This document shows, in pieces, positions 5,889 to 30,533 of a stretch of DNA of 42,942 bases. A model generated the notes under the pieces. The model saw only the letters and a list, made by a program, of their open reading frames with translations. It had not been told where the DNA came from and ran no database searches. Every line of letters starts with the position of its first letter. Position 1 is the first letter of the stretch. A program made the position numbers and the translations under genes. Source of the stretch: Fidelibacterota bacterium (GTDB lineage: Bacteria > Fidelibacterota > UBA8477 > JABMPR01). The DNA is taken from NCBI GenBank assembly GCA_021736185.1, contig JAIPGJ010000010.1:1-42942 (forward strand), read 5' to 3'.

Positions 5889-7763
5889 TTGCGAACCTGG
5901 CAATTTCATATCTTTCACCGGAGTGATCACAGGGCTGAAGCATTCAGATCCAATCCGACCACTCCACTTTTAAACATCTCTCTCAATTCAATTTTCGCTC
6001 ACAGGAATTTCCACATTTTACTCATCATGAGTGGATTCCTGACGAGCAATACTTTTGCTGCCGAGCAGGATTCTCTTGCCTACATTTTTCGGCAGGATAA
6101 TCTCTCCACAAATAATGATTTTCAGCTCAATTATAAACAAGCCTTCTCTGGAAGTGATCTTCTGGTAACGGATATTTTGAGATATAAAGTATTTTCCTTT
6201 GATAATGACCTCACTAATGAGAAACAATACTCTGTTGAGCACCGCCTGCAAAGTGATTATTCATGGGGCAAATACCGGAGTAAGAGCATCCGCCTGGAGA
6301 GTAGTCAGCATGAGGATCATCGGACGGGATTGGTTTCAACGATTGATAATTGGGCTTTATTAGCCGGCATTAAGCACAATGAGTCTCTAGCCTTTTTCGT
6401 AGGTGGAAGGTCCGTAGAGCGTTATGGGATTGTGGATGAGGGGTGGACCAGTGAATTGGATTTGAGGAAGTCCTGGCAGAGCACTCAACAGCAATCTTCA
6501 TTTGCCCTGAACGGATCCAGGGATCAGTTAAAAGACCACCTTAATCATACCCTGAATGCACGCGGGGAGTATCTCGTTCACTTTGGTGATATCTCCACCT
6601 TTCAAACCACCCTCAGCCGTGAAGCCCGTTTGCAGGCATTTTTCACTGATTCACTGGGCAGTTCCCAATCCCGTAATAATGAGAATCTGAATTGGCAGAA
6701 CCTGTTTGTTTATCACCTTGGAAAAGCCCTCAGCCTCACGCATCGTCTCGAGTGGGGTGATCAGTTGACAGAGATCAGTCGTGAAAAGGTGGATCAAAAT
6801 TCCACCCTCAACTTGTCTACTGAGGATAGAAAGCGTTTTTCCTTATTGAATGAAACATCCATTGAGTTGAACAACCCGAACCTCTCCACTTTAACTGCAT
6901 TCAAGGTTGAGAATTCACAAAACAAGTATTACGTGGATTATACACAGGTCCTTTATCAACTCAAGGAAGCCGTCCTCTGGCAAAATGCTGGACCCCTGGA
7001 CTCCTTGGCCTGGATTTCATCACTCTCAAGATTGGAGTATGATACTCCCGACACGACCAACGACGATGACAGAGATGAATGGAGACTTAATACTGAGATT
7101 AAAATGCTCTGGGAGCCTTCCCCCTTTTATAGGATTGAGCTTGGTACAAAATTGGGGTTGTTCCACCTGATTTATCTTTTCAACTCCCGGAGTTCCGAAA
7201 ATCATTGGAATCGAAATCTGGTTTTGTGGTCTGGAGTCGCCTGGCATAAAGGGGCCTGGTCAGGCGAAGGGCGTGCCAGAGTTTGGAGTAATTACTTTGA
7301 CTATGATTACGATGATATATTTATTGAATTAGATCAACCCTCACGCAGCTTTGTGCATCGGTCATTGGATTTGAATAAAAATATCGCATACAATTTTGGA
7401 CGACGTTGGTCGCTGAGTTCAAAAGCAGCTTTTCGCTGGGAGGATGAAGGCAAACTGAGATGGGATTCCTTCATTCAGCAGATCAATAGCAGCCGGGAAC
7501 AATCTGAATTGAGCCTGCAGCTTTCCTATAGCTACAGAGGTTGGGAAGGCTGGGTGGGCTATCTGACCCATGATCGGGTCATTAAATATGCATCAGCGAG
7601 TCGAGATTCGGATCATTGGGAGGGTCAGGGACCACTGGTGGGCGTTGTCTATCAATTGGGCAGACGAATCAACCTGAGGGGGGATGCACGATTTATCTCG
7701 GTGAAGGATGGTGACCGAGAATATTTGCTTCCCAAGGTCTATTTAACGCTGGTGTATCGCTAA
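5889..7763 (+). CDS. putative outer-membrane beta-barrel protein, unknown function
   Basis: Long ORF (TTG start in ORF track; true start uncertain) with a signal-peptide-like segment HILLIMSGFLTSNTFAAEQ and alternating aromatic/polar strands to a C-terminal YLLPKVYLTLVYR. Confidence 0.65.
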   Translation: MRTWQFHIFHRSDHRAEAFRSNPTTPLLNISLNSIFAHRNFHILLIMSGFLTSNTFAAEQDSLAYIFRQDNLSTNNDFQLNYKQAFSGSDLLVTDILRYKVFSFDNDLTNEKQYSVEHRLQSDYSWGKYRSKSIRLESSQHEDHRTGLVSTIDNWALLAGIKHNESLAFFVGGRSVERYGIVDEGWTSELDLRKSWQSTQQQSSFALNGSRDQLKDHLNHTLNARGEYLVHFGDISTFQTTLSREARLQAFFTDSLGSSQSRNNENLNWQNLFVYHLGKALSLTHRLEWGDQLTEISREKVDQNSTLNLSTEDRKRFSLLNETSIELNNPNLSTLTAFKVENSQNKYYVDYTQVLYQLKEAVLWQNAGPLDSLAWISSLSRLEYDTPDTTNDDDRDEWRLNTEIKMLWEPSPFYRIELGTKLGLFHLIYLFNSRSSENHWNRNLVLWSGVAWHKGAWSGEGRARVWSNYFDYDYDDIFIELDQPSRSFVHRSLDLNKNIAYNFGRRWSLSSKAAFRWEDEGKLRWDSFIQQINSSREQSELSLQLSYSYRGWEGWVGYLTHDRVIKYASASRDSDHWEGQGPLVGVVYQLGRRINLRGDARFISVKDGDREYLLPKVYLTLVYR

Positions 7764-8011
7764 GCCCTTTCGGGCAGGGGCTTTTCCAGTTCATCAATGC
7801 GCTCATTGAGTGTATCAACGTAGCCAGAGAGATGCTTTTGAACATCACGAATGGCCTGATTGTAATAATGTGGCCCAATATTCTCGCTGAAAAAGTCCAG
7901 CAGAAACTCAGCTTCAAAATTTCCTAATTCCTGACTCAATTCAGAGGTAAAGTATGCCTTAATCTGCTGAATGAGTTCGTCTTTCATTTGCCTGGAAAAG
8001 GTATTGATCAT
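7760..8011 (-). CDS. DUF2164 family protein
   Basis: 83 aa; IKAYFTSELSQELGNFEAEFLLDFFSENIGPHYYNQAIRDVQKHL resembles the DUF2164 pattern. Confidence 0.8.
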   Translation of the reverse strand: MINTFSRQMKDELIQQIKAYFTSELSQELGNFEAEFLLDFFSENIGPHYYNQAIRDVQKHLSGYVDTLNERIDELEKPLPERA

Positions 8012-22099: not shown

Positions 22100-23449
22100 A
22101 TGAACAAAAAATATGTGATTATCGGTGGAGATGCTGCTGGAATGAGTGCTGCCAGCAAAATACGACGCTTAGAGCCTGAATCAGAAATGATTGTGTTTGA
22201 AAAGGGTCAGCATATTAGTTTTGCTGCCTGTGGGATTCCATATTGGATCAGTGGTGTCATTGAGAGTATGAGTAAATTAGAGGTGCTGACACCTGAAGAT
22301 GCCCGAAAAAAAAGAGGGATCGATATACGAGTGGGACATGAAGTGCTAAAAATTGAGACGGAAAAGAATTCCGTTTTGGTCCGTGATCTGAGTACAGGAG
22401 AGGACTTTTCTCAGGATTATGACTCACTCCTTATCGCAACGGGTGCTCGCGCCACCATCCCACCAATTCCAGGCGTAGAGAAGCAAGGCGTCTTCACTTT
22501 GCGCAATCTGGATGATGGACAGAAAATTATCGATTTCCTTGATGCCGGATCAATAAAGCACGCAACGATTATAGGAGCTGGTTATATCGGCCTGGAGATG
22601 GCAGAAACCTTTCGCCACCGGGGTATTGATGTCACCATGATTGAAATGCAGGATCAGATTGCTCCGACTTTTGACAAGGATACGCTTGAGCAAGTAACCA
22701 GTCATATTATTGAAAAGGGTGTTGCCTTGCATCTTGAAACCAGAGTGTCAGCAATAGAAAACTCAGTATCAGGACTTACAGTGATGAGCTCCGGTGGAAA
22801 TATAGAAACTGATTTAGTGATAGTGTCCACGGGAGTGAGACCTAACTCAGAACTGGCCAGTGAGACAGGGATTGGGGTCGGTAAGAGTGGGGCAATTGTC
22901 ATTGACGAACATATGCGTACCACGGTGGAAAATGTATATGCTGCCGGTGACTGTGCCGAGCATCTGCATCGAGTCCTCAATCAACCTGTATGGATTCCTC
23001 TTGCCCCTGCAGCAAATCGGGGCGGACGTATTGCTGGGGAAAATATGGCTGGACAATCCACGGTCTTTCCAGGAATTCTGGGGACAGCTGCAGTGAAGGT
23101 ATTTGACTATATCATTGCCCAGACAGGGTTGACAGAAAAACAGGCAGCAAGTACTGACTACTCAACAGATATGGAAACGACAACTATTACAGGTGGTAGT
23201 AGGGCACATTATTACCCGGGGTCCGTGCCATTAACAGTAAAGCTGGTGGTGCAAAGATCTACAAAGAGATTATTGGGTGCCCAAATTATTGGCAAACAGG
23301 ATGTGGCCAAACGATTGGATGTCCTGGCAACTGCCATCACAGCAAAAATGACTGTAGCGGATATTGGCATGCTCGATCTAACCTATGCACCTCCAATTGC
23401 ACCTGTTTATGATCCCATCCACATCGCTGCCAATGTAGCTAATAAGTAG
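22100..23449 (+). CDS. FAD-dependent CoA-disulfide reductase / NAD(P)H persulfide reductase-like oxidoreductase
   Basis: YVIIGGDAAGMSAASKIRRLEP, active-site Cys in ISFAACGIPYWISG, TIIGAGYIGLEMAETFRHRG, VYAAGDCAE, C-terminal dimerisation domain. Confidence 0.9.
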   Translation: MNKKYVIIGGDAAGMSAASKIRRLEPESEMIVFEKGQHISFAACGIPYWISGVIESMSKLEVLTPEDARKKRGIDIRVGHEVLKIETEKNSVLVRDLSTGEDFSQDYDSLLIATGARATIPPIPGVEKQGVFTLRNLDDGQKIIDFLDAGSIKHATIIGAGYIGLEMAETFRHRGIDVTMIEMQDQIAPTFDKDTLEQVTSHIIEKGVALHLETRVSAIENSVSGLTVMSSGGNIETDLVIVSTGVRPNSELASETGIGVGKSGAIVIDEHMRTTVENVYAAGDCAEHLHRVLNQPVWIPLAPAANRGGRIAGENMAGQSTVFPGILGTAAVKVFDYIIAQTGLTEKQAASTDYSTDMETTTITGGSRAHYYPGSVPLTVKLVVQRSTKRLLGAQIIGKQDVAKRLDVLATAITAKMTVADIGMLDLTYAPPIAPVYDPIHIAANVANK

Positions 23450-23510
23450 TTTGAATTTGGTGATTTAGAGGTCTTTTGGGTGTTGTGTTAAAGAAGATGG
23501 GGATTGGTAA

Positions 23511-23708
23511 ATGATAAGAAAAGATATGCTGATTGAGGATCTAGTACAGGAGTATCCCAAGCTTATCACCCCTCTCAAACTTGAGGGGATAGTATGTCTG
23601 GCATGTGGTGAGGCAGTATGGGGAACTCTCGAAGCCCAGGCACTTGAAAAAGGCATTGCCAACATTGATGAGATTGTGGATCGGATGAATAAACTACTTG
23701 CTAAGTAA
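23511..23708 (+). CDS. DUF1858 domain-containing CxxC protein
   Basis: 65 aa MIRKDMLIEDLVQEYPKLITPLKLEGIVCLACGEAVWGTLEAQALEKGI. Confidence 0.85.
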   Translation: MIRKDMLIEDLVQEYPKLITPLKLEGIVCLACGEAVWGTLEAQALEKGIANIDEIVDRMNKLLAK

Positions 23709-23805
23709 TCCTGCAGGATGCCAGGTTATCCCGGGTAAAAGAAGTAATTTGTTCATATTGTTGACGTACAATGAATTATAATCAAAGAGTAATGAGGATA
23801 TACAT

Positions 23806-24228
23806 ATGTCAGAAGTAAAAATACAACAACTCAAGGGAGCTTCTTTTGCAGCTCGCGGTAGCTCTGGTCACTGGGTGATGATGGATGGGACAGAAGCAGT
23901 CGGGGGTGTGGATGGTGCAAGTCGTCCCATGGAAATGGTTTTGTTTGGCCTGGGCGGATGTACCGCTGTTGATGTCGAAATCATTCTCAAAAAAATGAAG
24001 GTACCAGTTGAGAAGATAGAGATTGATATCAGCTCAGAACGGGCTGAAAATCACCCGAAAGTGTATACAAAAATTAACATGACATATCATTTCTATGGGA
24101 AGGATCTTCCCTTAAAGAAGTTGGAAAAAGCTGTGCAGCTTTCCAAAGAGACCTATTGCTCAGTAAGTGCCATGCTGGCTTCGACTGCCAAAATCACAGC
24201 AAATATTGAGAATCACAATACCCTATGA
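23806..24228 (+). CDS. OsmC family protein
   Basis: GASRPMEMVLFGLGGCTAVDVEIILKKMKV and KETYCSVSAMLASTAKI; both OsmC cysteines retained. Confidence 0.93.
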   Translation: MSEVKIQQLKGASFAARGSSGHWVMMDGTEAVGGVDGASRPMEMVLFGLGGCTAVDVEIILKKMKVPVEKIEIDISSERAENHPKVYTKINMTYHFYGKDLPLKKLEKAVQLSKETYCSVSAMLASTAKITANIENHNTL

Positions 24229-24629
24229 TCCATCGGCTTATTGCATATTCCCTTATCCTACTGGGAGTGGGGGGCACCATTTATATGGGTGTTGAAGGCA
24301 TTTATGGGGATCATTATGATATTCCCAAGATGGGCTATGAGTCATTTAGCCGACAATATTCAGATTCCAGTAATTATATATTAATCGATGTTCGCACTGA
24401 ATCAGAAATCAAAGCCAAACCTGCACCCTGGTCAAATACAATTCAGATGCCCTTGCTTGCACTTGAGGATCGGTGCATGGAGCTTAATAAATATAAGGAC
24501 CAGCCCATGATGGTTTTGTGTCCTACGGGGAATCGCTCCCGACAGGGTGCTCGCATCCTCAGATTGGCCGGCTTTGATGCCTGGTATCTGGAACAGGGAA
24601 TGTTTATGGATGGAAGAAGGCTAAAATGA
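24225..24629 (+). CDS. membrane-anchored rhodanese-like domain protein
   Basis: N-terminal TM (LIAYSLILLGVGGTIYMGV), YILIDVRTESEIKAKP, active-site loop VLCPTGNRSRQGARILRLAGFDAWYLEQGM; ATGA overlap with the osmC-like gene. Confidence 0.92.
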   Translation: MIHRLIAYSLILLGVGGTIYMGVEGIYGDHYDIPKMGYESFSRQYSDSSNYILIDVRTESEIKAKPAPWSNTIQMPLLALEDRCMELNKYKDQPMMVLCPTGNRSRQGARILRLAGFDAWYLEQGMFMDGRRLK

Positions 24630-24847
24630 ATAAAAGATACACTAAAATGTTATCAGGTTTGGCAATTGGAGCTGTGCTCGGTTACCTCTATTACTATTAT
24701 ATTGGCTGCGCCTCAGGGACTTGTGCGATCACGTCAAATCCTTACATTAGTACTGCCTACGGGGCTATGATTGGTCTGGTATTTATGTGGCCAGCTAAAG
24801 AAAAGGATACTGCGAGTGATGATAAGGAAAACACACAAACTATTTAA
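24626..24847 (+). CDS. DUF6132-like small membrane protein
   Basis: 73 aa LAIGAVLGYLYYYYIGCASGTCAITSNPYISTAYGAMIGLVFMWPAK; ATGA overlap with the rhodanese gene. Confidence 0.8.
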   Translation: MNKRYTKMLSGLAIGAVLGYLYYYYIGCASGTCAITSNPYISTAYGAMIGLVFMWPAKEKDTASDDKENTQTI

Positions 24848-25535
24848 ACTACTCGCTTTGGTGTTGACCCTTGCTGCTACCCTGTATGGGCAAACCAATA
24901 ATTTTCAATTTGTTCAGCATGACACGGCTTATTTGGGTAGTGACACATTGGTCATCCTTCACGGTGAGATTATAAGTCTTACCAATAACACTCAATCCAT
25001 ATCTGTAACCAGGGTCACAAATGAAATTGACAGCGCATGGACCAACTCGTTTTGTGTGGGTCCCGCTTGTTTGCCACCCTTTCTGAATACCTTCACTTTT
25101 GATCTGGCTGGATTGGATACAGCTGAATTTACACTTGATACCTTCACACACCATGAATTGGGATATGGAAGCTGGACTATTTTTGCTGTTGACTCTTCCA
25201 CCATGGAAGTTGATTCAGTCCATATCAGTATGGAAGTGGTGACCGTCTCCGTTGATGGATCAATCCCAAAACCAACGTCGTTTGAACTTTCCCGTGTTTA
25301 CCCCAATCCGACGAATGCCTCGGTTAACTTTGATCTTGAACTCGAACGGGAAGGGGATTATTCAATTATTCTCTATGCTCTGGATGGAAGAGAAATCATT
25401 TCGCGGAACTATCACCTGAGATCTGGTAAAAACCATCTTCAATGGTCTCTAAATTCCCTGCCCTCAGGGAATTATATCATTAGCGCTATTGGATCGGGTG
25501 CACAAATTTCCAGACAGTTGAGCGTGATAAAATGA
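24819..25535 (+). CDS. secreted protein with T9SS type A sorting domain and a C-x4-C motif
   Basis: Signal peptide MIRKTHKLFKLLALVLTLAATLYGQ (start 24819; ORF track 24771); DSAWTNSFCVGPACLPPF; C-terminal FELSRVYPNPTNASVNFDLELEREGDYSIILYALDGREI...LPSGNYIISAIGSGAQISRQLSVIK. Confidence 0.82.
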   Translation: MIRKTHKLFKLLALVLTLAATLYGQTNNFQFVQHDTAYLGSDTLVILHGEIISLTNNTQSISVTRVTNEIDSAWTNSFCVGPACLPPFLNTFTFDLAGLDTAEFTLDTFTHHELGYGSWTIFAVDSSTMEVDSVHISMEVVTVSVDGSIPKPTSFELSRVYPNPTNASVNFDLELEREGDYSIILYALDGREIISRNYHLRSGKNHLQWSLNSLPSGNYIISAIGSGAQISRQLSVIK

Positions 25536-26023
25536 TACGATTATTACCCGTTCTATTGATTGTTGCCCTGGTATTTGGTCAGGAGAAAAACCTGCCTCAG
25601 GCCAATCTTAAAGACATGAAGAATAAGACGCAGAGTCTTGATGAGCTTGTTAAGGGTCAGGTCACATTGATAAACTTCTGGGCAACCTACTGCGTTCCTT
25701 GTCGCAAGGAGATGAGCCATTTGAATCGAATTAATAGCTTCTATGCTGACCAGAACGTTCAGGTGATAGGCATATCTATTGATGATTCTCGAACAGTTGG
25801 CCGGGTGAAGTCAATGGTCAAGTCACAAAAACTTAATTACACGATTCTTCTCGACACAGAACAAAAATTATACAAGAATTTTAATACTTCAGCCATGCCC
25901 TTTTCCATTCTGGTTGATGCCCGGGGAAAAATTCTCTGGGAGCACACTGGCTACCTCCCCGGTGATGAAATTGAGATGGAATCAGAAATTAAAAAAGCTT
26001 TAGCTCCCCTTAAAAAGAGCTGA
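25532..26023 (+). CDS. TlpA-like thioredoxin/redoxin protein
   Basis: Signal peptide; LINFWATYCVPCRKEMSHLNRI; LVDARGKILWEHTGYLPGDE; ATGA overlap with the preceding gene. Confidence 0.93.
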   Translation: MIRLLPVLLIVALVFGQEKNLPQANLKDMKNKTQSLDELVKGQVTLINFWATYCVPCRKEMSHLNRINSFYADQNVQVIGISIDDSRTVGRVKSMVKSQKLNYTILLDTEQKLYKNFNTSAMPFSILVDARGKILWEHTGYLPGDEIEMESEIKKALAPLKKS

Positions 26024-26033
26024 TTCATCCCCA

Positions 26034-27731
26034 TTGCTTTTCCTGCTCAGAACGCTCATCCTCCTGACCATACCCCTGAGTATGTTGGCAGAAGAACTAT
26101 CCTGGGATTTCAGTCTTAAATCAAATCTGGGCCGAGGCGAACAAGTGGGCAATGATTACAATTATTTTGAAAACTTCATTAGTGGCTCTGTTGAGTTTGG
26201 ACAGTGGTATCTGGATCTAGCTATAGAGTCCAGTCAGCCACCAGAGTACGGCTTTGAGTATCAGGGAATAGATCGATTTTTTCTGAGCTATATCGGAAAC
26301 TCCCATTCATTGGAGCTCGGGGATATATCAGCTGTATTTGGTCGAGGTTTGGCTTTGAATCTGGATGAGAATCAAGCCATCGATTTTGACAATGAAATCA
26401 AAGGCATAAGATATTCGTCTGTTTTCATGGACAATCATGAATTTGATATACTGGCCGGGTTTAAAAAGGAGTATCGTTTTTATTCCCCGAGTTCAGAGCT
26501 TCGGGAGCCAGATGGCATGGCCGCCTATGAATTGGCTGGTGCTGAAGCAACTATCAATAGTGAAAATGGTAAATGGTCTATGATTCCCTACGTCGTTGTG
26601 AGTCACATGCAGTCTGATTTTGTTTGGCAGGAACTGGATATAGATGGGGGTGTTATCATTACAGATACGGTCACTCAAAACATGAATGCCATTCAAAGTG
26701 GGTGGGGCCAATCTATCTATGGGGAGAACTGGGATTTATATCTTGAATATAATAACACCTGGAAAGCTTTTGACTATCCAGTGCTTACCCAAAGCATCCA
26801 AGGTCTTGAAAATGGTCAAAGTCTGATTAATGATGCTCCTGAATATCGTGGGAACGGACAAGCCTTCAATTTGCAGCTTAACTGGTTCCCAGAATGGTTC
26901 ACCAGCCTTATTGAGTATAAACGCTATTTAAATGGCCCAGAAACAACCTCCCAGAAACGCAATCCACTGCTTCTGGCTACCAAGCCACTGCCCTGGCAAA
27001 TGGGTCCGACTGGAATCAGAGAGCATGATATCAGTCTCCTGGGCAATGTTACTCATCCAATCGATTACGGAGATGAATTGGGATGGAATCTGGAATTGCG
27101 GAAAACACTGTCCGATACCTGGTCAGTTGTGATTAATGGGGCGCGAACTTCGCAATCAGCAGCGCAGGGGGCACCAGGGATTCTTCCCACACAGGATCTG
27201 GATAGAAATCCCTGGCAGGAGTATTACGCAGAATTTGAATATTCTGGTTCAAACTTTTATCAAAGAATGTTGATTGCATATACAAAGTCGGTACTCAGCG
27301 GACAATCATCCGCAGAAGTGATGGAGCATGTTACCCTGGTTCCAGCATATTTATCCTGGCATCCCAATGAGAATCTGGTGCTTTCCACAGTTGTGGAATT
27401 ACAGACTTCAAAAGTGTATGGAGAGTTGTACGCAGGGGAAGTATTGGAAGGTCATAGTTTTCAGAGTGGTCACTTCATCGCCAGTGCCGACTACAGTCAC
27501 AATTATTCCGCTGCCATCATCTGGGACACCAGCAATGATCCAAACCTGATCTCGGGTGATGAGAGAACCCAACACTGGGTCAGTGGGGAAGTTTCGGTCA
27601 AACCCATGACTGGATTTTGGCTCCGCGCATCCTATGGCAAAGAAAAGGGCGGTGTCCGCTGTACCGGTGGCGTGTGTCGTGTAATAAATCCTTTTGAAGG
27701 CTTTCGATTGGCACTGGAGTGGCGACTATGA
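26034..27731 (+). CDS. DUF6029-like outer-membrane beta-barrel protein
   Basis: TTG start and signal peptide LFLLRTLILLTIPLSMLAEE; HSLELGDISAVFGRGLALNLDENQAIDFDNEIKGIRYS; barrel-like alternation to a C-terminal FRLALEWRL. Confidence 0.68.
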   Translation: MLFLLRTLILLTIPLSMLAEELSWDFSLKSNLGRGEQVGNDYNYFENFISGSVEFGQWYLDLAIESSQPPEYGFEYQGIDRFFLSYIGNSHSLELGDISAVFGRGLALNLDENQAIDFDNEIKGIRYSSVFMDNHEFDILAGFKKEYRFYSPSSELREPDGMAAYELAGAEATINSENGKWSMIPYVVVSHMQSDFVWQELDIDGGVIITDTVTQNMNAIQSGWGQSIYGENWDLYLEYNNTWKAFDYPVLTQSIQGLENGQSLINDAPEYRGNGQAFNLQLNWFPEWFTSLIEYKRYLNGPETTSQKRNPLLLATKPLPWQMGPTGIREHDISLLGNVTHPIDYGDELGWNLELRKTLSDTWSVVINGARTSQSAAQGAPGILPTQDLDRNPWQEYYAEFEYSGSNFYQRMLIAYTKSVLSGQSSAEVMEHVTLVPAYLSWHPNENLVLSTVVELQTSKVYGELYAGEVLEGHSFQSGHFIASADYSHNYSAAIIWDTSNDPNLISGDERTQHWVSGEVSVKPMTGFWLRASYGKEKGGVRCTGGVCRVINPFEGFRLALEWRL

Positions 27732-28990
27732 GAAGCTTGCTCGCAATCTCACTCCTGTTTATCTGGTCCTGTGAGTGGCGACCGGATGAGATTCAGATTG
27801 ATTCCACAGCGACTATAGAGAATATTAATGTCGTTATTGGTGATACGATTTCCCTTCACATTGAAGGCAGTAATTTTTCCCTTATTCAGGGGTTGGACAA
27901 TGCCATTGCGGAAGTGAACGACGTCGTAAATGTGGAGCAGGGCAGAGAGCTCGAGATCATCGGATTAAATCCTGGTGCGCTCAAATTATTCTTCAAATAC
28001 ACCAGCCCAACTGCCTCCGATTCTGAGCCTGTAACTGCTTCGTACTTAATACATCTTGGTGTTACCGAATCAATACCCTTATCCGTTAATGTCGGAGAAC
28101 AGCTTCAGCTTGATATTTCTACCTATTTATCATTAGAACAGCTCGTTCAACTTGATACAATCGCCATTATTGTTGCCCAGGAGATTCCTGGTGGGGAAAT
28201 AAGCATTGAAGAGCTAGCTGACTCAACAACGGGGATACTTATCTATGGTCTGAAGCCAGGATATTCCGGTCTTCAAATTTTATGTCTGGATTCCAATAAT
28301 AATCAAATTGCTGCATTTACCTTTATGGTTGAGATATCCATCCATAAAGTGGTACTAGCCGAATTGTTCACCAATACAGGTTGCGTTAATTGTCCACAAG
28401 CGAATGAATATTTAGACCGTATTTCGGCAGAATTTGGCAACGACTTCGCTCTGGTCAGATATCATGTTAACTGGACCGACCCTTTTGACCCCATGAATCT
28501 TTATAATCCAGGTGAAGTTGAATCCAGAAGAGCCTATTATAATATCTTTGCCGCTCCTGGTCTGGTGCTTGATGGCACGCTAGTCACCACCCTTGATGAA
28601 GATGATTGGTCTGGACGGGTAAGTAATGCAACCCTGCAAATACCGCAGGTGTACATCTCAGCAGTGGATATTGTGGAGAGCATCGACAGTCTTCATCTCC
28701 AAGTCGATGTAAATTCTTTTGGCACCTTGCTCGCTGACCTGACCGTCTGGTCCCTGGTGTTTGAAGACAGTATTGAATATGCTGGCTCCAACGGAGAGAC
28801 GCTTCACATGAACGTCATGCGAGATATGGCATTCAGTTCAATTGGTGAGTTAAACACCCTGAATACCATCCGACACAGTTTGAAAAAACCCGATGATTAT
28901 GGAGTTGCTGGTCCAATGAATTTGATGGTTTTTATCCAATCCGAGGATGATAAATCCATCCTCCAGACTCGTAAGCAGAAATTATATTAA
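27728..28990 (+). CDS. Omp28-related lipoprotein with thioredoxin-like CxxC domain
   Basis: Signal/lipobox-like MRSLLAISLLFIWSCEW; VVLAELFTNTGCVNCPQANEYLDRISAEFGNDFALVRYHVNWTDPFDPMNLYNPGEVESRRAYYNIFAAPGLVLDG; ATGA overlap with the barrel gene. Confidence 0.82.
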   Translation: MRSLLAISLLFIWSCEWRPDEIQIDSTATIENINVVIGDTISLHIEGSNFSLIQGLDNAIAEVNDVVNVEQGRELEIIGLNPGALKLFFKYTSPTASDSEPVTASYLIHLGVTESIPLSVNVGEQLQLDISTYLSLEQLVQLDTIAIIVAQEIPGGEISIEELADSTTGILIYGLKPGYSGLQILCLDSNNNQIAAFTFMVEISIHKVVLAELFTNTGCVNCPQANEYLDRISAEFGNDFALVRYHVNWTDPFDPMNLYNPGEVESRRAYYNIFAAPGLVLDGTLVTTLDEDDWSGRVSNATLQIPQVYISAVDIVESIDSLHLQVDVNSFGTLLADLTVWSLVFEDSIEYAGSNGETLHMNVMRDMAFSSIGELNTLNTIRHSLKKPDDYGVAGPMNLMVFIQSEDDKSILQTRKQKLY

Positions 28991-28998
28991 GCATTCCC

Positions 28999-29442
28999 AT
29001 GGCCGAGCTTCATCCCTTTTTTGTCCATTTCCCCATCGCCATACTGGTGGTGGCGGCACTGTTTGACCTATATGGTGTGATAAAAAATATTCAGCAGCAT
29101 ACCTGGACCGCCTACGCTTTACAATTAATGGCTGGTGTGTCGGCAATATTTGCGGCAATAACTGGCCATCGTGCCGAGTCCTTAATTGTCCGTCAGGAAG
29201 CCCTCCTCCAGGGGGTCACGGAGACCTTTAACCGACACATTTCGTTGGGTAATGCCATGGTTTGGATCATTGTCATCGCAGCCGTAGGACGGACATTTGC
29301 TGTTCTGGAAAAAAAAGAGTGGGCACTCAGGGGTTGGAGATTTCCTTTGCTTAGTCTTGGATTAGCAGTTCTGATCCTCATCACTGGGTTGTTGGGTGGC
29401 CAGTTAAGTCATGAAATATTGAGCTATTTTAAAGCAAATTAG
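28999..29442 (+). CDS. DUF2231 domain-containing membrane protein
   Basis: LHPFFVHFPIAILVVAALFDLYGVI followed by three further TM segments; 147 aa. Confidence 0.88.
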   Translation: MAELHPFFVHFPIAILVVAALFDLYGVIKNIQQHTWTAYALQLMAGVSAIFAAITGHRAESLIVRQEALLQGVTETFNRHISLGNAMVWIIVIAAVGRTFAVLEKKEWALRGWRFPLLSLGLAVLILITGLLGGQLSHEILSYFKAN

Positions 29443-29528: not shown

Positions 29529-30533
29529 TTAACTTTCGATAAATCGTTTCCCATTCATCGTCTTTAAAAACGCCGCGATCTTTGACGCCTCTTCATCAGA
29601 TATTTGCTGCATGAGTTGCATATCACCCATCATTTTGATCGTTTCCTCAAGAGTTTCTACACCACCATCATGGAAGTAGGGGGCGGTGAGCCCGATGTTT
29701 TTCAGCGAAGGAACCTTAAACATGAATTTATCCTGCTCCATGCCCGTAACCCCGAAGCGACCTTCGTCTTTAAGATTCTTATATGGTTTTATTAGACCAT
29801 TCTTCTGGTACATATTTGCACCCAGCATAGAGCCCATATGACAGGTTATGCATGCTTTGCCCATGAAGAGGTCAAGCCCCTCCACCTCTGTTTTTGTGAT
29901 TGCCTTGAGATCACCCTTTAAGAATGCATCAAAGCGGTCGTGAGTTATTAGCGTCCGTTCAAAAGCGGCCATGGCTTCGGTGATATTCTCGAAGTTGATG
30001 CTGTTTTCACCGAAAGCCTCAACGAATAATGAATCATACTCAGGGAGTGCTTTGATCTTTGCAACGGCAGTTGCAGAATCTGGTATGGCCATTTCAGCCG
30101 GGTTAAGAACTGGACCACCAGCCTGTTCATTCAGGTCTGCTGCGCGACCATCCCAGAATTGAACAAAATGAAACCCCGCATTGAATACAGTCGGGGAGTT
30201 CCTTGGTCCCGGAATTCCATTGGTCCCCTCTGAAGTGGGCTTGTTATCTACACCTGCCTTGGCAAGATCATGACAGGTGTTGCAGGACATGTCACCCGTA
30301 TTGGATAGCGCCGTTTCAAAATAGAGCTTTTCCCCAAGCTTGACCCGCGCTGGTGTATCATTTTCCGATCCCGGCATTTTATCAGGGATGACTGCAAACA
30401 TTGGTTTTGCTTTGCTCAGAACTTCTTCTTGATAGCTCATATCTTCTAAGGGCTGTTTATCAGCCTTGCCACCACACTGGATCAACCCGATGATCATCAT
30501 ACTCATGATAATCAGAACCACACCCTTTTGCAT
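29529..30533 (-). CDS. di-heme cytochrome c peroxidase
   Basis: Two CxxCH motifs (CNTCHDLA, CITCHMGS), LGEKLYFETALS, APYFHDGGVETLEETI; lipoprotein-like signal MQKGVVLIIMSMMIIGLIQCGG. Confidence 0.94.
   Translation of the reverse strand: MQKGVVLIIMSMMIIGLIQCGGKADKQPLEDMSYQEEVLSKAKPMFAVIPDKMPGSENDTPARVKLGEKLYFETALSNTGDMSCNTCHDLAKAGVDNKPTSEGTNGIPGPRNSPTVFNAGFHFVQFWDGRAADLNEQAGGPVLNPAEMAIPDSATAVAKIKALPEYDSLFVEAFGENSINFENITEAMAAFERTLITHDRFDAFLKGDLKAITKTEVEGLDLFMGKACITCHMGSMLGANMYQKNGLIKPYKNLKDEGRFGVTGMEQDKFMFKVPSLKNIGLTAPYFHDGGVETLEETIKMMGDMQLMQQISDEEASKIAAFLKTMNGKRFIES

Follow-up and report, generated by a model that had tools for sequence, protein, structure and literature searches.

The stretch of DNA considered here, hereafter the window, is 42,942 nt long, is numbered over its whole length, and belongs to the host phylum Candidatus Neomarinimicrobiota according to the named records (245 genomes). 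It contains a cassette of genes coding for a TlpA-type thioredoxin, a DUF6029 outer-membrane β-barrel and two proteins predicted to be exported, one of them a substrate of the type IX secretion system (T9SS). The features of the cassette are the following:

24819 (ATG)..25535, + strand: T9SS-sorted dicysteine protein with a signal peptide, an immunoglobulin-like (Ig-like) domain carrying W-x4-C-x4-C, and a Por_Secre_tail
25532..26023, + strand: TlpA/ResA-type periplasmic thioredoxin with the motif WATYCVPCR, orthologous to the cassette TlpAs of Bacteroidota
26034 (TTG)..27731, + strand: DUF6029 outer-membrane β-barrel of about 24 strands, without an N-terminal plug domain
27660..27677, + strand: C-x4-C of the barrel (RCTGGVCR, residues 543-548), in a hairpin between the last two strands, invariant in relatives
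27728 (ATG)..28990, + strand: Omp28-like lipoprotein with a thioredoxin-like domain (TNTGCVNCPQ) and the lipobox IWSC

The T9SS-sorted protein and TlpA are joined by an ATGA overlap (25532-25535), the barrel starts 10 nt past the stop of TlpA (gap 26024-26033), and a second ATGA overlap (27728-27731) links barrel and lipoprotein. An earlier note on this DNA had described the four genes with these coordinates and joins, and the motifs TNTGCVNCPQ and FCVGPACLPPF are present exactly as it gave them. Three of its identities are borne out by profiles above cut-off: in Pfam and NCBIfam searches the T9SS-sorted protein matches Por_Secre_tail at 34.9 bits (cut-off 27), TlpA, which has a CxxC and an N-terminal hydrophobic segment, matches Redoxin at 87.1 bits (cut-off 26.6), and the barrel matches DUF6029 (PF19494) over residues 52-562 at 58.6 bits (cut-off 27). 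The fourth protein has the lipobox and a thioredoxin-type CxxCP motif (CVNCP), but it scores below both curated cut-offs for the Omp28 label (Pfam Omp28 PF11551, 14.8 vs 34.9; NCBIfam lipoprot_Omp28 NF033782, 36.7 vs 150) and is therefore called Omp28-like, in the sense of remote homology. Against NCBIfam NF045500, the Omp28-related selenoprotein, it reaches 17.1 bits (cut-off 200), with Cys instead of selenocysteine (Sec). Two features had escaped the earlier note, namely the Cys pair of the barrel itself (543/548) and the fact that the run of overlapping genes exceeds four.

DUF6029 is present in 135 of the 245 genomes of the window's phylum and in 80 of 297 genomes of a second phylum, Bacteroidota, sampled around a Rikenellaceae genome; the Ignavibacteriales genome of locus L096 is counted with Bacteroidota. 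In total 125 loci were read, 60 of them from Neomarinimicrobiota, and L165, a sub-cut-off DUF6029 match devoid of the Cys motif, was left out. TlpA lies immediately upstream of the barrel in all 57 Neomarinimicrobiota loci having upstream sequence and directly before it in 53 of the 64 Bacteroidota/Ignavibacteria loci (automatic gene calling gave 50, two genes that it had overlooked bring the count to 52, and a fusion brings it to 53), with median gaps of 5 nt and 3.5 nt for the two phyla; in four more Bacteroidota/Ignavibacteria loci TlpA is one or two genes away from the barrel. TlpA had seemed to be missing from 14 Bacteroidota loci, which turned out to be partly an artefact of the open-reading-frame picker and of the adjacency rule: by direct search, TlpA is next to the barrel in L112 and L119, and in L115 it is fused to it. 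Since such a TlpA is found for only 1 of 403 genes located 5-9 positions away, chance neighbourhood is ruled out, and the association of DUF6029, TlpA and Omp28 families, which the earlier note had proposed to check, is far above random. Moreover, all 54 cassette TlpAs of Bacteroidota score 50.6-123 bits against the TlpA of the window, while five paralogues from the window's own genome reach at most 43.7; because the cassette TlpAs outscore these paralogues, TlpA is an orthologous part travelling with the barrel. A second, divergent DUF6029 type (GGPACTAGTCYE and similar) occurs in L088, L089, L090 and L092, also with TlpA in front, and three of these loci have in addition a T9SS thioredoxin (IGYGCPFCR) ahead of the divergent barrel.

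In one Bacteroidota genome (G541, locus L115, positions 5939-7942) the two proteins are encoded by a single frame of 667 residues, made of a signal peptide, TlpA (Pfam AhpC-TSA, 21-140) and DUF6029 (158-667, 583 bits). The same fusion, 67% identical to that of L115, is found in a second related genome, G564 (L182, positions 284-2320 of the - strand). In both, the C-terminus of TlpA joins directly the start of the mature barrel, whose own signal peptide is gone, while the relatives compared with them encode TlpA and barrel separately. The same clean join in two species argues against a sequencing error and, being located at the N-terminus of the barrel, would place TlpA at the periplasmic face or within the lumen. 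Fusions were also suspected in six further genomes on the basis of shared open-frame lengths, where the DNA shows separate genes.

All 121 barrels whose C-terminus is intact (56 from Neomarinimicrobiota and 65 from Bacteroidota/Ignavibacteria) have the C-x4-C, 8-25 residues from the end of the barrel and mostly in the context GG-x-x-C-x4-C; in 73 of them the pair represents the sole cysteines of the protein. The most conserved dithiol of the cassette is thus that of the barrel. An AlphaFold2 model of the barrel built from 31 sequences (pLDDT 87.3, pTM 0.81) has about 24 strands, the first of which begins already at residue 22, so that there is no plug. The hairpin that separates the final two strands of this model (540-544/547-551) carries Cys543 in one arm and Cys548 in the other, opposite the termini. 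In the standard topology of outer-membrane proteins the termini are in the periplasm, and the Cys hairpin is for this reason predicted to be exofacial. The structures matched with Foldseek are large plug-bearing receptors (OprC, FrpB, Cir) and MtrB, all at a TM-score of about 0.47, a value that points to likeness of gross shape only, and a sequence search of the PDB with the barrel returned nothing meaningful.

In 108 of the 125 loci, one of the two genes after the barrel or of the three before it encodes a thioredoxin-fold or Omp28-like protein, often showing a lipobox or a T9SS tail. In at least 31 of the 60 Neomarinimicrobiota loci the frame of this partner stays open only when a single TGA is translated as Sec, at the first catalytic position, in contexts such as WUGPC, TTUPSC and QUPYC; the partner in L076 matches NF045500 in full, at 414 bits. 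Of the genomes tested, 20 of 25 from Neomarinimicrobiota have a tRNA-Sec above the Rfam cut-off, against none of five from Bacteroidota, whose partners use Cys. Hairpins of the Sec insertion sequence (SECIS) type past the UGA lend weak support (mean z -0.77). The exchange between Cys and Sec suggests that the position is a catalytic redox residue. In L057, L058 and L061 (genomes G143, G140 and G138, of one genus) the partner frames need UGA to be read as Sec, yet no tRNA-Sec above the Rfam cut-off was found. In L048 and L049 a T9SS-sorted protein downstream of the barrel carries a UxxC thioredoxin domain behind a propeller-like repeat region, and the Prevotella-type locus of L105 and L106 comprises TlpA, DUF6029, an Omp28 lipoprotein and a 933-residue protein with TGTWCGWC. 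A T9SS-dependent, trypsin-recruiting Omp28-related protein is active at the surface of Paraprevotella (PMC9477747).

As for the possible source of reducing power, the genome of the window encodes, away from the cassette, a full-length DsbD that has a DWCIPCK domain of its own, and in five Bacteroidota loci (L103, L104, L107, L109 and L110) DsbD genes lie next to the cassette. The presence and the adjacency of DsbD would favour an outward flow of electrons.

The T9SS-sorted dicysteine protein has homologues in the window's order, in G205 and at several loci from the second phylum, with their genes placed ahead of TlpA. As the earlier note had suggested should be checked, its Cys pair is invariant, together with a Trp, in 20 of 20 homologues, with x3-x4 spacing. 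The structure model shows two Ig-like sandwiches, which rules out that the protein is a thioredoxin, but it may carry or receive thiols. Its Por_Secre_tail, together with the sortase PorU encoded in the genome (705.7 bits, cut-off 420), makes it a predicted T9SS cargo. Being limited to some lineages, it is an accessory and not part of the core, which, judging from the sequences compared, is composed of TlpA, the barrel and the thioredoxin-fold surface protein.

The longer run of overlapping genes around the cassette, in which OsmC, rhodanese (ATGA) and DUF6132 (ATGA) precede and DUF2231 follows, has these further members:

23806..24228, + strand: OsmC-like protein, upstream neighbour
24225..24629, + strand: rhodanese-domain protein, upstream neighbour
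24626..24847, + strand: DUF6132 small membrane protein, upstream neighbour, kept within the window's order
28999..29442, + strand: DUF2231 membrane protein, probably the operon's final gene, kept only within the window's order

The region before the cassette (22100-24847) contains a CoA-disulfide reductase-like flavoprotein and a DUF1858-like gene (23511-23708) ahead of OsmC, rhodanese and DUF6132; the OsmC-rhodanese-DUF6132 stretch is kept within the window's order and not elsewhere in the phylum, and its conservation suggests a sulfur or persulfide link in the window's lineage. On the other side, a MauG/MbnH-like diheme peroxidase gene (29529-30533, - strand) is convergent to the cassette, a neighbourhood shared by most genomes of the genus. 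In L046-L061 and L068, which belong to many Neomarinimicrobiota families, glutamyl/glutaminyl-tRNA synthetase-like genes and a gene for a 433-residue conserved exported protein lie upstream of TlpA.

The earlier note had read these genes as a surface redox or secretion cassette. Neither a random association of the families nor a loss of the Cys pairs was found, which supports a surface redox cassette, and the TlpA-barrel fusion and the surface selenoproteins speak for redox and not for secretion, a role left without any support. With moderate confidence, the cassette is proposed to be a trans-outer-membrane thiol-disulfide relay running from DsbD through TlpA and the barrel to a surface acceptor. 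According to this proposal, DsbD in the inner membrane would reduce TlpA, which would dock at the periplasmic mouth of the plug-less barrel or inside it, like the plug of a TonB receptor or MtrA in MtrB. Its electrons would then reach the surface acceptor, directly or via the exofacial C-x4-C of the barrel; the acceptor would be the Omp28-like lipoprotein in the window and T9SS-sorted UxxC selenoproteins in other lineages, and it would in turn reduce disulfides, peroxides or other oxidants outside the cell. A further surface carrier or substrate in the window's lineage could be the T9SS Ig-like dicysteine protein. Gene order, invariant Cys pairs, the TlpA-barrel fusion, the exchange of Cys for Sec in the surface partner and the presence of DsbD and PorU are observed, while the membrane topology, the contacts between the parts, the passage of electrons through the barrel, its direction and the final substrate are deduced from genes, sequences and single-protein models. 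Several points weigh against the relay. Seventeen of the 125 loci have no recognised surface partner, partly on account of contig ends, and seven of the 64 Bacteroidota/Ignavibacteria loci have no linked TlpA; six of these seven genomes were examined (L102 was left out), and four of them encode an unlinked TlpA orthologue 47-51% identical to a cassette TlpA, while the other two have weaker matches, one at 40% and one at only 27%. Furthermore, the Foldseek scores of about 0.47 amount to generic barrel similarity, the C-x4-C of the barrel could be a purely structural disulfide, and, if the Cys loop is exofacial, TlpA would have to enter the lumen or hand over its electrons directly to the surface protein.

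A structural disulfide is at the heart of a different explanation, in which TlpA would reduce or isomerise the C-x4-C at or after assembly of the barrel and the surface thioredoxins would serve exported proteins likewise, with no electrons crossing the membrane. TlpA-like proteins elsewhere act as reductases dedicated to specific substrates, the barrels have an invariant Cys pair and mostly no other, and a fusion would also suit a tethered folding factor. However, the hairpin is predicted to face away from the periplasm after insertion, a tethered TlpA would be odd for one-time folding, and the surface thioredoxin-fold third gene, often with Sec, is left unexplained; this explanation appears unlikely. 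Quite improbable is that the barrel acts as a redox-gated channel or receptor moving a small substrate (a metal, heme, a low-molecular-weight thiol or a sulfur compound), with TlpA and the Omp28-like protein reducing the substrate or gating the pore via the Cys pair. The best fold matches are indeed receptors, among them the copper transporter OprC, genes for CoA-disulfide reductase, OsmC and rhodanese adjoin the cassette in the window's lineage, and HBP35 of Porphyromonas gingivalis, a T9SS-sorted surface protein with demonstrated thioredoxin activity, binds hemin (PMC2907840); but the barrel has no N-terminal plug, the sulfur-related neighbours are limited to the window's order, and no transporter partner recurs. 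Finally, a 2022 study reported that Wzi-type barrels near outer-membrane polysaccharide export (OPX) genes resemble DUF6029 by HHpred and proposed for them a role in secretion (PMC9603273). That the barrel of the cassette is such a polysaccharide-secretion porin is very improbable, as in the 125 loci no polysaccharide-export neighbour recurs, as far as neighbours were identified, while redox proteins do, and as a porin of this type gives no reason for the fusion with TlpA.

The proposed thiol-disulfide relay recalls several known systems. Like MtrCAB of Shewanella (PMC7198977), the cassette combines a large outer-membrane barrel, MtrB being among the fold matches, with a small periplasmic redox protein and an extracellular one, and by analogy it may work like an Mtr conduit. 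Nevertheless, inspection of the window's T9SS-sorted protein, TlpA, barrel and Omp28-like protein revealed no CxxCH heme motif, so that the assembly, as read from these sequences, is not a member of the Mtr porin-cytochrome conduits; its redox groups would be thiols or selenols, and the fold likeness is weak (TMq 0.48), homology not being claimed. Relays of the DsbD/CcdA/ScsB type also exchange thiols and disulfides across a membrane and reduce TlpA/ResA-type proteins, but with helical domains in the inner membrane, where the cassette would use a β-barrel in the outer one. The barrel shares with TonB-dependent receptors the 22-strand class and, in L115 and L182, a plug-like domain of about 140 residues at its N-terminus, which differs in being a thioredoxin and, in nearly all genomes, a separate gene. 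Omp28-family surface proteins and NF045500 selenoproteins correspond to the third gene of the core (as in L076), although the window's protein uses Cys and falls below both curated cut-offs. HBP35 is likewise a T9SS-sorted surface thioredoxin (PMC2907840), but it is not known to be linked to DUF6029 or TlpA. In the open-access literature searched, DUF6029 appears in a single paper, as a possible polysaccharide porin (PMC9603273), and Omp28 is linked neither to TlpA-DUF6029 nor to selenoproteins, subscription papers and preprints being mostly outside this search. The parts of the cassette belong to known families, and the novelty of their assembly is provisional for the reason just given.

Thiol relays are, to our knowledge, established across the inner membrane, and electron conduits of the outer membrane only with hemes. 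It is tentatively suggested, with rather less assurance than would be needed to assert it, that the cassette is the first thiol-disulfide conduit of the outer membrane, in which TlpA would act as a removable or fused plug reducing surface Cys/Sec enzymes, and the surface of Bacteroidota, Ignavibacteria and Neomarinimicrobiota would be kept reduced from the cytoplasm via DsbD. Even if no electrons cross the barrel, the natural fusion of a thioredoxin with a barrel of the outer membrane would stand as an architecture of which no earlier example was found. The joint encoding, across two phyla, of TlpA, a Cys-pair barrel and a surface thioredoxin-like protein suggests that reducing power is passed through the outer membrane. 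If this is true, a thiol-based relay, directly testable in tractable Bacteroidota, would explain how gut, oral and marine bacteria keep the thioredoxins and selenoproteins of their surface reduced, and DUF6029 would gain a function.

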